This document shows positions 1,640 to 24,973 of a DNA stretch of 64,000 bases, one piece after another. The stretch covers positions 18,556-82,555 of the forward strand of contig JAZKEU010000011.1 of the NCBI GenBank assembly GCA_040386775.1. Reading direction: 5' to 3'. A program made the position numbers and the translations under genes. The first letter of the stretch is position 1, and the number at the start of each line of letters is the position of its first letter. The DNA comes from Bdellovibrionota bacterium. Its GTDB lineage: Bacteria > Bdellovibrionota > Bdellovibrionia > Bdellovibrionales > JAEYZS01. The notes below the pieces were generated by a model. It was not told the origin of the DNA. It saw only the letters and a program-made list of their open reading frames with translations, and searched no databases.

Positions 1640-2209
1640 TTAAGGGGCAATATAGCTATGCCCTTCTAGGGCAAGTCCGTTTTCAATTCCTTCAAAATAC
1701 AGCGGGAGCGTCTTTCTCGTTGGTGATCGATACAATTCGCTCTCAGAATTATAGATTCCAAAATGGAGTTGAGGGCGACATAGAAATCCATTATTAGCAG
1801 TTCTTGCTATAACCTGACCACGTTTTACATTCTGGTTTTGTTTTATAATTGCTTCAACGTGCACGTATTGAGCGACAGTTCCGTCGCTAGATTTGATTTT
1901 GATATTATGGGCTAACTCAGAGTATTTACTATTGCAACCTCCGCCTTTATTGGGCGCCCATATTTCTATTACTTTTCCATCTTCAACCGAAATGACGTCG
2001 CTACCAAAAGGGACATCAAAATCCCAAGAGTATTCATTTCCAGGTTCTGAATGCGAGGCTTTTCCAAAAGTACCTTGAGACACAAAGAAAGCTGTTCCTG
2101 AGTTTAAAGGAATTGAAATTTTTTTGTAAGCGCTGCTATCTGTATTCAAATAAGGATTCACGGTTGAACAACCCGTCAATAGAATCAGAGCCGAGTAAAG
2201 GAGCTTCAT
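1640..2209 (-). CDS. M23-fold lipoprotein with degenerate catalytic site
   Basis: Predicted lipoprotein of 189 residues, with a signal peptide and a lipobox ending at Cys14 (LTGC). The body is a LytM/M23 peptidase fold, recognisable from the DFDVPFGSDV strand, YVHVEA (His117) and the final LHFGIY strand. In active LytM enzymes the zinc site uses HxxxD and HxH. Here the first His of HxxxD is Ser61 (Asp65 kept), and the first His of HxH is Gln148 (His150 kept). Two of the catalytic or metal residues are therefore missing. It probably binds peptidoglycan or activates another amidase rather than cutting, or it uses a variant site. It stands alone, facing the ABC operon. Confidence 0.8.
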   Translation of the reverse strand: MKLLYSALILLTGCSTVNPYLNTDSSAYKKISIPLNSGTAFFVSQGTFGKASHSEPGNEYSWDFDVPFGSDVISVEDGKVIEIWAPNKGGGCNSKYSELAHNIKIKSSDGTVAQYVHVEAIIKQNQNVKRGQVIARTANNGFLCRPQLHFGIYNSESELYRSPTRKTLPLYFEGIENGLALEGHSYIAP

Positions 2210-2291
2210 AATTCAATCTTTACGCTGAGAACCAGATTTGTCCATCAAAAGGAATAATTTTAAGCAAATAAATAGCTCAAAAATCATGACT

Positions 2292-3275
2292 TCATGACGG
2301 AGTTCCAAATACTCGCTCTGTAACAAGTTTATGATGTTGAAAGCACAAAAGTCTTAAATTCTGAACAGTGGTTTCACCATTAAATGCCATAGGCTTTATG
2401 TGATCGTATTGGATTAAATGCTTTGAATTGCATCTTCTCTTTGTTTTCTGATCAGTGAAAGTACAACAGCCTTTATCTCTCATGTATACTTCTTGCTTGA
2501 TAGTTCCTGGAATATAACGATTAACTGGTTTACATATTTTTCGATTCTTGGAATCTGAAATTTCTTTGGATAAAGTTCCAACAACATTTTTATTTATCTT
2601 TTGAGCTTCCACTTCTTTTTTTAATTCCACTTGTTGCGAGGTAGAAGCTCTGCGTTGTGATGGGTCTTTCTTCTTAATTACCATATCGCACATAAGTTCT
2701 AAGAGTTTGTTCAAGTCTCCTTCTGGGTTTTGATGAGAGAGTAAATTTTTAACTTGGTCTATTTTATCTTTAAGATCCTTTTTTATAGTGAGTTTAAGCT
2801 CCGTATATTCTTCGCTGATTATTCTCTCCTTTGATCTTGTGATTATAGGCTCAGGTGAGAGCTTGATAAGTTCTAACTCACATTCTCTCGTCGATTTATT
2901 CTCTATCTTTTGTACGAGCTCTTTCTTTTCTGAAAGATTTAAGGGCTTTTCATCTTTATAAGCTTGTCTGATAAAGCTTTGAATCTTGGCTGCATTGGAA
3001 AGGCTCAAAGAACCTTCTTTGATTTTAGCTTCAACTTCAGGAAGATCACGAATTAATCTCATAGCACATATTCTTCTTTGGGCTTGGGACTCAGAGTATT
3101 TGAGTTCTCTTAAACAATATTCAAAAATACTTGAAAAACCCATTTCCAAATGAAGTTTTCTATTTTCTATCTCCCTTAAATGATGGAGTATCTCGGTAGT
3201 TATTTTTCTTTCTTCACTAGAAAGTCTTTTGGCATTTTCTAGTAAATTTTGATTTGAAAAATGTTTTAAGTTCAT
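2292..3275 (-). CDS. HNH endonuclease domain protein, copy 1
   Basis: Protein of 327 residues. It has a long helical, charged N-terminal region (about 1-230) and a C-terminal HNH nuclease domain. The HNH part shows CC..C cysteines, the QYDHIKP metal/catalytic His, the central Asn in VQNLRLLCFQHHK, and the final His pair. The ATG at 3275 is chosen because an AAGGAG ribosome site lies six bases upstream; an upstream ATG at 3302 lacks one. A clear paralogue sits at 36244-37248, nearly identical in its opening block (SSEERKITTEILHHL). Such HNH proteins are multicopy in Bdellovibrionota. Their role is unknown; mobile or selfish behaviour is possible. Confidence 0.82.
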   Translation of the reverse strand: MNLKHFSNQNLLENAKRLSSEERKITTEILHHLREIENRKLHLEMGFSSIFEYCLRELKYSESQAQRRICAMRLIRDLPEVEAKIKEGSLSLSNAAKIQSFIRQAYKDEKPLNLSEKKELVQKIENKSTRECELELIKLSPEPIITRSKERIISEEYTELKLTIKKDLKDKIDQVKNLLSHQNPEGDLNKLLELMCDMVIKKKDPSQRRASTSQQVELKKEVEAQKINKNVVGTLSKEISDSKNRKICKPVNRYIPGTIKQEVYMRDKGCCTFTDQKTKRRCNSKHLIQYDHIKPMAFNGETTVQNLRLLCFQHHKLVTERVFGTPS

Positions 3276-3748
3276 GTGTATCTCCTTTAATGAAAAGAAC
3301 ATACCACGATATTTAAAACTTAAAGATTTGAGAAATTTAAAAATTGAAAAGCATATTCATAAAACGATATTAGACACACATAAAGGCTTTCTATTAATCA
3401 CAACGAAGATAACATTAAAAACAGAAGAAAATATAAAAATAACTAAATGCAATTCATTTAATCCATCAATAAACTCGTCAACTTTATTCTAAAAAAATGT
3501 TTTTAAATAACGCACAAGCGACACATAAAGGTGCAGGGTACTTTTTGGGTTTTGACGCAGCGACAGTACGAAAAACTAAGGGGTACTTTTTCTTTTAGCA
3601 CTTGCGAAACACAAGTAGGTGGCGCTTTTAACACTTTTAACGACTTTCTCAAATCTTGCGAAGACTAATTTTTTGCATACTTTTAGAATAATTTGTCTCA
3701 ATTTGAGACTGATGCTTTTCTCCATTAAAAACCTACCGATAAGAAAGT
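3276..3748. other. 473-base non-coding stretch between HNH gene and secreted-protein gene
   Basis: No convincing gene. The part next to the HNH gene is very AT-rich and open in one frame, but its translation is low-complexity (Lys, Ile, Thr). Near 3535-3600 the phrase GGGTACTTTTT occurs twice about 45 bases apart, once followed by GGG and once by CTTTT. A short palindrome lies at 3695-3709 just upstream of the next gene. Confidence 0.5.
3695..3709. promoter_or_regulatory. Perfect palindrome upstream of secreted-protein gene
   Basis: GTCTCAA-T-TTGAGAC forms a perfect 7-1-7 inverted repeat, about 40 bases before the ATG at 3749. The size and position suit a dimeric repressor or activator operator, but the cognate protein is unknown. 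Confidence 0.4.
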
Positions 3749-22012: not shown

Positions 22013-22800
22013 TTTGTTCTCCTTTTATTTTTTTTAATAATTTTATTTGTTGTTTCTAATTTAGTAATTGGAAATAGCGATACGGAAATTTGATATACAT
22101 GTTCGGAGGCAATATTTTTTCTTTGGAAAAATGCCGCTAAATTGTGTCGAAATTCAGTTATAAGTTCTTTTGCTTTCTTAAGGTCTTTGGCATTTCCACA
22201 GACCATCATGGAAGTATGATCTCGTTCGGTCCTTGGAAGATCTTCTAAGGCTTTCATGGATTTTTCTAGAATTTGCATTTGATATTTTCTCATGGCAGCC
22301 GAAGAAAAATCGGAATCGAGAGTATTGGAGTTAAATCTTGATTTATCTAACCACTGTCCGTTGGGCGCAATTTCTAAAAGTTCCAATCTACATAATCTTT
22401 CCGCGGCCGCGCGCACTTGATTTACGCTAATATCTAAAGTTTTAGCGATCCAAGTGAAATCTGGATTGAAATTTTTAATTCGCGTGAGCTCCAGAATAGC
22501 ATCATGATACCAATCAGAAGTGGCTGCAAATAGATCTTGAGTAAATTCTGCATACAACTCGTTAGTGGATTTTTGAGATATGTAATTCTGCAATTCATCA
22601 GGTGAGAGACTGAGTTTAGTTCCTAATTTTTTGATTGTTTTTTCGGTTATAGGTCGTTTTTGAGAAATTATGGAAGAAAGGGTCGCGGGATCAATATCAA
22701 GTTGTTTTGCGAAAGATCTTAATGAATAGCTCGGGTTTCTCTCGCATCTCTTAATGAGTTCTGATTGTAGCATTAACCGAAAATTGATTTTGTTTTCCAT
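22009..22800 (-). CDS. TIGR02147-family regulator
   Basis: Protein of 263 residues with two likely DNA-binding parts. An N-terminal XRE-like helix-turn-helix has SLRSFAKQLDIDPATLSSIISQKRPIT, and a winged-helix-like middle has FTWIAKTLDISVNQVRAAAERLCRLELLEI. The C-terminal domain (DUF4423-like) carries the typical HTSMMV segment. This architecture is TIGR02147, a family frequent in Bdellovibrio and Fibrobacter. A perfect inverted repeat lies about 42 bases upstream of its start and is a likely autoregulatory site. Confidence 0.85.
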   Translation of the reverse strand: MENKINFRLMLQSELIKRCERNPSYSLRSFAKQLDIDPATLSSIISQKRPITEKTIKKLGTKLSLSPDELQNYISQKSTNELYAEFTQDLFAATSDWYHDAILELTRIKNFNPDFTWIAKTLDISVNQVRAAAERLCRLELLEIAPNGQWLDKSRFNSNTLDSDFSSAAMRKYQMQILEKSMKALEDLPRTERDHTSMMVCGNAKDLKKAKELITEFRHNLAAFFQRKNIASEHVYQISVSLFPITKLETTNKIIKKNKRRTK

Positions 22801-22841
22801 ATGGGCGAGAAGATAATGGAAGAGAAGAATTTATTAAAGAA

Positions 22842-22866
22842 AATTTGCAACAAGGTGTTGCAAATT
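22842..22866. promoter_or_regulatory. Perfect 11-3-11 inverted repeat, likely operator
   Basis: AATTTGCAACA (22842-22852), spacer AGG, TGTTGCAAATT (22856-22866). The arms match perfectly. A further TGCAAC half-site begins at 22871. It sits just upstream of the TIGR02147 gene, which makes that protein the first candidate to bind it. Confidence 0.65.
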
Positions 22867-23359
22867 GAAGTGCAACGGTCATTTTTACAGTATTTTAGAA
22901 GAAATATTCCTTTAGATCATCATCAGTACTGTAGATGTAATGGGCCGATACTTTGAACACGCTTTTTTTAAAGGATTAATTCTGTTTTGTAACGCAAGTT
23001 ACTTTGGAAAAAACAAAGAAGTGTTTGATGATCAGAACAATTTCAATTTTCTATTTTAACTACCTGAGATTATATGCGATTTAACGAATTAAACCTTCGA
23101 ATCAGCTTTGATATTTAACAAAAATCCGGCTTATATCTAGCGAGTTCTGAAGCCAAAAATTTTAATTTTGAATTGGCTTTCGATGCAAAACGAATTTTTC
23201 AAATCGCCACATTAAGCGAGATTTCTTTGCCATCAAAAAAACAAGAATTCCATATGGTTTTGATAAAGCAAAGCCACGAACAGAAATTCTGCTCTATTGA
23301 AAAATTTCACTTGCGGCAAATTCTCTTTACATCAACTCAGTAAATTTATAAACAAACAA
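22867..23359. other. AT-rich non-coding stretch
   Basis: No gene is seen. There are several weak hairpins, for example AGCCAA/TTGGCT near 23151-23178 and ATCAAAA..GTTTTGAT near 23232-23265. Short decayed-looking coding fragments are possible, but none can be assigned. Confidence 0.4.
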
Positions 23360-23724
23360 TCAGTGGACCGTGAAATAAAAGCATCGGGTACTCGCCCGAA
23401 AGAGAGACGACACTCGCCGGGGCTCATCGGTAAATTTTAAGGAAGAGACGGATATTCATCGAACGGCCACTCGAGAAACGAAGGCCAGAAGACTCGAGCG
23501 GAACGCCACGACTTGATAGCGTGAGGTTATCTACCATAGAGCTGTGCAAAAGTGATAAGTCCCTATATGGGCAGAAGTAGCGCAGTGGGCACTTGGCGGC
23601 AGACAAGTAAAAAAATTAGTAAAAGATTTCGTTGGGATTTGTACCGAAGAAAAAACAGATTTGCACTGCAAACCTGTCCAGATATTTTGTTATGCTAAGC
23701 ATGCAATGTCGAGCATGCTTTTTT
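23360..23724 (+). ncRNA. Candidate structured RNA ending in an intrinsic terminator
   Basis: The part from about 23370 to 23610 is clearly richer in G and C than its surroundings. It contains several small stems, such as CGGG..CCCG, ACTCGAG twice, CCCTATATGGG and ACTTG..CAAGT. It lacks a sensible open frame and is followed by a strong terminator at 23697-23724. No RNase P (GAGGAAAGTCC), tmRNA or SRP core sequence could be found. The exact 5' end is unknown. It could be a housekeeping RNA too diverged to recognise by eye, or an RNA of the neighbouring mobile element. Confidence 0.4.
23697..23724 (+). terminator. Intrinsic terminator with perfect stem
   Basis: AAGCATGC (23697-23704) pairs with GCATGCTT (23713-23720) around an eight-base loop, followed by a run of T to 23724. 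No protein gene precedes it on the + strand, which supports an RNA gene upstream. Confidence 0.75.
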
Positions 23725-23846
23725 CGTCAAACAAGGGATATGGGGTGAGCCCCTCACATTAGACAGTGCCTTAAATAGTTATTGAACAAGACGGTTGGCC
23801 TAACTGCGGAACCTTGATAGAAGGATTTCCGTTATGAAGGACAATT

Positions 23847-24257
23847 ATGGAAATATTTACGCCACCACAAGTTAAAGAGAAAAGACCACCAGGAAGGCAA
23901 CCAAAGCACTCGCAAGAGTTTATGATAATGGTTGCTAGGAAATGCATTGATGAGGGAATGACTTATCGAGAAGCCTCCACAATATTTGGAGTATCTCACG
24001 GATCGGTCTATCAATTTATTCAAAAATATAAGCACGATAAATTCAAAACCAAAAGAAATGCTAGAACGAGTAAGTATAAAAAGGAAGTTGAAGAATATCG
24101 TCATACGGCTCAAGTGAAGGAATTAAAGCATGAGATAGCAGAGCTTTATTTAGAAAACTTGATGTTAAAAAAAGCTCTGAAACACTCTCTGTCAGCATCC
24201 AAACGAAATAAATCTTTAAAGACGTTGTTCCAAAGAAAAAATTTAAAGTTGAAATAA
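23847..24257 (+). CDS. IS3-family OrfA-like protein, without OrfB
   Basis: Protein of 136 residues. A helix-turn-helix (about 25-60, MTYREASTIFGVSHGSVYQFI) and a leucine-rich coiled coil (HEIAELYLENLMLKKAL) give the usual layout of IS3 OrfA. The expected OrfB with its DDE integrase domain is not found downstream. The last 20 or so residues (lysine-rich) seem to come from sequence that also encodes a T4SS-like fragment on the other strand, so the element is probably truncated near 24190. Just upstream, TGAGCCCCTCACATTAGACA (23746-23765) looks like an IS3 left end. Confidence 0.6.
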   Translation: MEIFTPPQVKEKRPPGRQPKHSQEFMIMVARKCIDEGMTYREASTIFGVSHGSVYQFIQKYKHDKFKTKRNARTSKYKKEVEEYRHTAQVKELKHEIAELYLENLMLKKALKHSLSASKRNKSLKTLFQRKNLKLK

Positions 24258-24351
24258 GTAAGAAGAGAGCCAGAAGATCAGGAACCTCAAATCCAAAGAT
24301 CATAAGTTTTTTATCTAGACTCTTACTTACCGAAGTACTTTTTAACTCCAT
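24061..24351 (-). pseudogene. T4SS VirB3/TraL-like membrane protein fragment
   Basis: An open frame of 96 codons begins MELKSTSVSKSLDKKLMIFGF and continues with a hydrophobic pair (PDLLALFLLISTLNFFFG and LKIYFVWML). The Lys-x-x-x-FG-x-x-x-D-L pattern before two membrane segments resembles VirB3/TraL-type conjugation proteins. The part after about residue 52 overlaps the OrfA-like gene in antisense and looks unrelated, so the gene was probably cut by the insertion. It starts three bases after the stop of the frameshifted gene upstream. Confidence 0.35.
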
Positions 24352-24896: not shown

Positions 24897-24973
24897 TGGG
24901 GCGATCGACGGGGCTCGAACCCGCGACAACCGGAATCACAATCCGGGGCTCTACCAACTGAGCTACGACCGCC
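24897..24973 (-). tRNA. tRNA-His (GTG anticodon)
   Basis: Full cloverleaf on the minus strand. The acceptor GCGGTCG pairs with CGATCGC with one G-U. The tRNA-His-specific extra G(-1) is at 24973 opposite C73, the CCA end is encoded, the D-loop is AGCTCAGTTGGTAGAGC, and the anticodon loop TTGTGAT has anticodon GTG. The T-arm GGGTTCGAGCCC is standard. It lies in the middle of a decayed mobile-element region, consistent with use as an integration site. Confidence 0.96.

Follow-up and report, generated by a model that had tools for sequence, protein, structure and literature searches.

A conserved RNA of ∼225 nt with a predicted pseudoknotted fold on small dispersed elements free of protein genes in the Bdellovibrionota

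We describe, in the phylum Bdellovibrionota, a family of small dispersed elements free of protein genes, each with one RNA gene of ∼225 nt. The RNA has a conserved structure with a loop-loop pseudoknot and a patchy, multi-copy distribution; the copies end sharply, many lineages show inverted terminal repeats, and no protein gene lies inside or consistently beside them. On balance, we favor the view that this is an RNA gene on a non-autonomous transposable element, probably needed for the spread of the element, with the protein acting in trans.

This RNA, which has an elaborate conserved fold and appears to be spread among Bdellovibrio-type genomes by small mobile elements free of protein genes, was previously unlisted. 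To our knowledge, large bacterial RNAs so structurally constrained are few, and most have turned out to act as catalysts or to belong to RNA-protein machines. That such an RNA travels on these elements in a phylum of predatory bacteria raises the question of which machine it belongs to. Should the RNA drive movement of the element, the result would be an additional kind of RNA-dependent transposition; otherwise the RNA class is nonetheless one not described before, and its structure and copies have now been catalogued and can be tested.

Results

The RNA in the window

The window is the whole stretch of DNA analyzed (64,000 nt). Within it, the original prediction placed a GC-enriched candidate structured RNA, free of any ORF and with its own terminator, at 23360–23724. 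The enrichment is real (0.52 at 23400–23599 vs. 0.29–0.37 over 23000–23399, 200-base windows), and the hairpin with its T-run is present. Terminator-like sites in 22780–24300 number 7 vs. 1.2 ± 1.1 in shuffles. The conserved RNA covers ∼23361–23588, ∼110 bases shorter on the 3′ side than proposed; 23589–23696 is without conservation in strong BLASTN matches. Only one 60-aa minus-strand frame (23424–23606) overlaps the RNA. We rejected this frame as protein-coding, because the protein clusters overlap the RNA itself and the alignment has insertions and deletions.

Comparison shows a conserved fold, but folding energy gives no support by itself (z −0.07 on the + strand and, mildly better, −1.80 on the − strand, relative to shuffles). 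With an energy so near that of shuffles, the several possible stems of the prediction are no evidence in themselves, and the window alone makes a weak case. Comparison also brought out what lay beyond the view of the prediction, namely that the RNA belongs to a dispersed, multi-copy and apparently mobile unit and that its conserved part ends at ∼23588. The ends of the element copy (Table 1) were taken from relatives: on the left, the alignment with L052 (genome G038) begins at 23297 (87% identity), and on the right, a 393-bp unit common to L060 and L108 terminates in AAACAAGTG, equivalent to CAAACAAGGG at 23728–23737.

Table 1. Features of the window copy (z, covariation in the structure-blind scan; cells paired, counted in the 86-copy alignment).
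Feature	Position	Strand	Basis or remark
Element copy, approximate span	23297–23737	+	Ends deduced from relatives; no inverted repeats detectable here
Conserved structured RNA, ∼225 nt (predicted)	23363–23588	+	Covariance-model matches, covariation; 39/39 proposed pairs standard in window
P1 closing stem	23363–23366 with 23506–23509; 23368–23369 with 23500–23501	+	z 18.1, 8.8, 5.9, 5.5; 87–90% cells paired
P1a hairpin, length varies among relatives	23384–23399	+	z 7.7 (columns gap-offset); 55–75% cells paired
P2 stem	23416–23419 with 23464–23467	+	z 19.9, 14.0; 95.9% cells paired
P3 stem	23470–23475 with 23493–23498	+	z 16.0, 11.6, 11.0, 7.8; 93.8% cells paired
P2/P3 loop kissing interaction	23421–23423 with 23484–23486	+	92–93% cells paired
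P4 hairpin	23515–23531	+	z 7.9 plus weaker pairs; helix 67.6% cells paired, innermost pair 34.7%
P5, conserved internal loop (GAAAGU.AUAAGUC / GAAGUAG type)	23542–23585	+	z 14.7, 13.6; 73.5%, 77.5% cells paired
P5 inner stem	23561–23563 with 23569–23571	+
Terminator-like hairpin and T-run of window copy	23697–23725	+	Hairpin 23697–23720, 8-bp stem, 8-base loop
Block upstream of P1, recurs in nearby lineages	23304–23330	+	GGCGGCAAA..CTnTACAT, read by eye

Covariation and fold

Covariance-model searches yielded 130 matches (111 + 19), and 87 were left after filters for length, flanks, absence of N and distinctness. Column pairs of these 87 distinct copies, aligned by sequence alone, were ranked by G-test with average-product correction. 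The top pairs of this structure-blind scan lie within P1–P5 and the kissing pair 23423–23484 (z 9.9), where CG, TA, TG, GC and AT occur; some top-ranked pairs are nonstandard (e.g., 23556–23572, z 7.5).

The drawn structure (39 pairs) was counted on 86 of the 87 copies in a MAFFT alignment that was not fitted to any structure. Paired cells made up 80.9% of 3062, vs. 62.9% in shuffles and 36.9–42.7% with slid structures, and this test is not independent of the scan, from which the structure was partly drawn on overlapping sequences. The covariation score was 0.451, vs. 0.060–0.129 for slid structures. In none of 500 shuffles did the percentage of paired cells or the covariation score come up to the observed value, and both-side changes were found at 36 of the 39 pairs. 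P1a, P4 and P5 are paired in fewer cells (35–78%) because their lengths vary. About 30 columns are at least 90% identical across the 86 divergent copies, and the core is pseudoknotted.

These data indicate that (i) the tabulated segment is almost certainly a structured RNA; and (ii) its predicted fold comprises a closing stem P1, hairpin P1a, P2 and P3 with kissing loops, hairpin P4 and a terminal stem P5. Energy minimization gives the window copy an MFE fold of −56.3 kcal/mol that is not the comparative one (−37.9 without the pseudoknot), which counts against a simple energy-based reading. A first RNAalifold consensus gave a partial structure only, with a small hairpin placed where P1 is now drawn. 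In two further sequences (L037:∼2560–2680 and L048:∼1–115), P3–P5 are retained but another, mutually similar sequence stands in place of the 5′ half, giving the RNA a modular look.

Comparison with known RNAs

None of 4227 Rfam families matched 22780–24300 at gathering score, where matches up to E 10 stayed at chance level, and 8 RNAs of relatives were also without a match (RNase P, tmRNA, SRP, 6S, HEARO and group I/II introns included). A known housekeeping RNA was therefore rejected; the prediction had likewise found no core signatures of RNase P, tmRNA or SRP RNA on either strand. The two computational checks proposed with the prediction, an Rfam search of 23300–23730 and covariance analysis in relatives, gave no family at threshold (none credible at E ≤ 10) and strong covariation, respectively. 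Among the titles listed by searches of openly accessible full-text journal papers, none describes the 225-nt RNA.

Transcript ends

A T-run (at least 5 T) within 25 nt after P5 was found in 34 of 96 copies, vs. 2.9 in shuffles, so that P5 itself often looks like a terminator. The hairpin of the window copy sits ∼110 nt beyond P5 and is specific to its lineage; in other copies a T-run often directly follows the last RNA stem. Terminator hairpins beyond P5 are weakly enriched (12 of 96 vs. 6.8 expected). TATAAT-like hexamers starting 11–15 nt before P1 were counted 14 times (4.4 expected; 77 of the 86 copies). From these signals, transcription of the 225-nt RNA is plausible. An upstream block like TTGGCGGCAAA..CTnTACAT stands ∼40–60 nt before P1 in the window (23304–23330) and in relatives, at a distance that does not match sigma-70 spacing.

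Dispersed copies and their ends

The copies lie in units of ∼340–640 bp without a protein gene; copies in the same genome share a block of 344–640 bp, with sharp divergence outside it and unrelated flanks. Copies L060 and L108 are 99.5% alike over 393 bp, and L147 and L148 are 99.5% alike over 403 bp, both with unrelated flanks; the same was observed for the L121 pair (95.6% over 362 bp) and the L142 pair (98.8% over 344 bp). L130 and L131 share 91.9% over ∼405 bp, and L054 and L106 share 88.8% over 640 bp. With a single 3-kb query, matches were obtained in 17 of the 26 genomes of one genus, many of them beginning at the same base, 1412.

Inverted repeats were scored on 83 of the 111 matches (96 of them served for T-runs and 78 for flank complementarity). 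A score of at least 12 was reached by 28 of the 83 copies vs. 25 of 600 swapped pairings (4% expected), and a score of at least 14 by 17 vs. 6, respectively. Examples are AAGGAATTTACCTGG (L121), AATAGATCTACTCGCT (L044) and AAAGATTATCAGCTACTAGTAG (L043), and the ends of L055 form a 35-base pair with one mismatch. The terminal repeats vary between lineages, with a CTACYYGT-like core read by eye. In the window copy the best score was 10, which is chance level, so its mobility rests on relatives. Inspection of 17 pairs of ends by eye revealed no target-site duplication, and the empty-site searches yielded no clean empty site. An autonomous parent was not seen when TIR patterns were searched in 7 genomes; the sites read were RNA copies, remnants and contig ends. 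Judged from the sequences of the copies, mobile dispersal of the element family is very probable.

At L040 and L048, a different small element with inverted repeats (ends resembling ACTGGTACAGGGCAACTCT) is located within or next to the RNA copy. Closely spaced tandem RNA copies occur at L154:5615–5944 and L138:4610–5138, the latter being an intact copy abutting a 5′-shortened one.

Distribution

BLASTN matches at E ≤ 0.001 were obtained in 11 of 59 related genomes, own genome included. In the relatives they are limited to 23360–23591, with up to 94% identity in short pieces and 91% at full length. Scanning 84,980 species genomes with a conserved-core pattern gave 28 stretches, and nearly all of these records are titled Bdellovibrionales, Bdellovibrionaceae, Pseudobdellovibrionaceae or delta-proteobacteria. 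Covariance model R1 matched 33 of 140 genomes of the order (E ≤ 0.01) and 78 of 368 genomes of the phylum (E ≤ 0.001), counts that may miss copies because stricter filters were used for many genomes.

The distribution is patchy, often with several copies per genome; 15 matches in genome G076 are the maximum, and the window's own genome has a single copy. Most copies lie in draft metagenome bins, and two plasmids of Bdellovibrio sp. HAGR004 bear one unannotated copy each. The match in a planctomycete (L046) was judged by eye to be due to chance. A phage origin was rejected: the core pattern had 0 matches in a viral contig collection, and no match was found in 50,697 phage records. Two CALQIT02 records labelled Streptomyces griseus (L047 and L055) hold model matches identical to contigs of G076 (L047/L102 and L055/L105); since G076 is placed in the same order as the other carriers, this label looks wrong, and the MAG appears to be a Bdellovibrionales genome.

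Search for a protein partner or guide function

No neighbor is constant: the commonest adjoining protein family is found at only 5 of 117 distinct copies, and a fixed partner gene was rejected. Among the 140 genomes of the order, Y1 transposases are present in 25 of 33 carriers vs. 71 of 107 non-carriers (p 0.39), reverse transcriptases in 10 of 33 vs. 36 of 107 (p 0.83) and IS110 transposases in 4 of 33 vs. 13 of 107 (p 1.0). Their presence is independent of the RNA, and a reliance of the element on any of these three kinds of protein was rejected. Matches to PF01797 (Y1) are absent from 8 of the 33 RNA-bearing genomes, G076 with its 15 RNA matches among them, and matches to PF00078 are absent from 23 of the 33 in the order. 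For exact complementary matches, the RNA did no better with its own flanks than with swapped flanks of other copies (78 copies), which argues against a simple guide.

Discussion

Proposed role of the RNA

We propose that the elements would move as DNA in a non-autonomous, MITE-like manner, and that a protein encoded elsewhere would cut or copy them, recognizing their ends. Transcription of the RNA would start near P1 and stop either after P5 or at a hairpin close by. The RNA would serve the element's own spread rather than a host task, for instance as RNA partner of the trans-encoded protein. MITEs need no gene. Here, however, an intricate RNA stays whole in elements that are gained and lost and whose ends drift apart, and the simplest account would be that spreading falls to those copies whose RNA works; with its structure under selection in such an element, the RNA would most likely serve that spread, probably bound by the enzyme. 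For a role of the RNA in the element's own movement, we regard the chances as even. We put forward only tentatively, as possible yet doubtful, a new type of RNA-dependent transposon in which the RNA is sole gene and mobility factor, as the obligatory partner of a transposition protein encoded in trans or as a ribozyme, and selection for spread rather than for the host keeps the fold across the phylum.

Alternative explanations

Among the alternatives, we place a host- or plasmid-serving cargo RNA first, a ribozyme second and retro-movement third. A regulatory or housekeeping RNA could ride as cargo on mobile DNA and act in trans on functions of the host or of a competitor, such as plasmid or island stability or defence. 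The strong structural constraint, the copies on two plasmids and some neighbors that look by eye like toxin-antitoxin or defence genes would suit such an RNA. However, it is missing from 107 of the 140 genomes of the order, is multi-copy in many carriers and has no constant neighbor; this patchy presence speaks against a host-serving RNA, whose inheritance should be more regular, and we judge this explanation unlikely.

The near-invariant columns and pseudoknotted core would also befit a ribozyme of unspecified reaction with the element as its vehicle, but no Rfam ribozyme matched, and we consider this improbable. Still less probable is a retroelement-like unit, in which the RNA would be the mobile form, reverse-transcribed by a reverse transcriptase in trans. 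Conservation at the RNA level without a protein fits it, as do two copies interrupted by group II introns, although there the element is the victim. Reverse transcriptase presence, however, is unrelated to RNA presence, and inverted terminal repeats outside the RNA point to DNA transposition. An ordinary MITE, whose copies merely share sequence and encode no functional RNA, would account for the repeats, the inverted ends and the lack of an ORF, but is very improbable: among lineages with diverged terminal repeats, compensatory changes greatly exceed those in the shuffled and slid controls.

Comparison with known mobile systems

The preferred reading, an RNA gene on a non-autonomous element, has one familiar half: the dispersal is of a known, MITE-like type. 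As in MITEs, the units are short and dispersed, with no protein gene and no parent enzyme inside (paired copies of 344–640 bp), and their flanks are unrelated (the own genome having only one copy). Inverted terminal repeats occur in many lineages, in about a third of the copies, none being detectable in the window copy. In contrast to MITEs, the element carries an RNA with phylum-wide compensatory covariation, and neither an autonomous parent nor a target duplication was found for it in the searches above.

The IS110 bridge RNA, too, is structured and sits within a small transposable element, but the unit described here has inverted ends and lacks a recombinase gene; it shows no adjacent DEDD recombinase (there being no common neighbor), no IS110 co-occurrence and no flank complementarity beyond chance. 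The omegaRNA of IscB/TnpB (HEARO RNA and relatives) is also a conserved RNA tied to mobile DNA, whereas our RNA has no Rfam match and no recurring neighbor, hence no consistent nuclease gene, in 117 copies. As in REPIN/RAYT systems, the inverted ends of one lineage (L055, L036 and L050) form hairpins with a GTAA foot, but the presence of the RNA is not tracked by Y1 transposases. Group II introns without an ORF are mobile units that can be RNA only; the 225-nt RNA differs from them in having no Rfam match, inverted terminal repeats and no reverse transcriptase link. The RNA class has no Rfam match, and neither it nor its association with elements free of protein genes fits any of the known kinds tested.

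Insertions and neighboring features

Two copies (L204:∼1900–3600 and L243:∼1–1650) appear to be split by group II introns that bear a reverse transcriptase gene. Reverse transcriptase genes adjoin the RNA at G076:C77 and G008:C98, where a group II intron appears to interrupt the copy. In the window, a tRNA-His (GTG; 24897–24972, − strand) is the sole Rfam match at gathering score. Directly beyond the RNA element, at 23746–24257, lies a partial element that we take to be IS3-like; it carries an HTH_Tnp_1 orfA, and 24 bases of its end are found again at G000:C17:150028.
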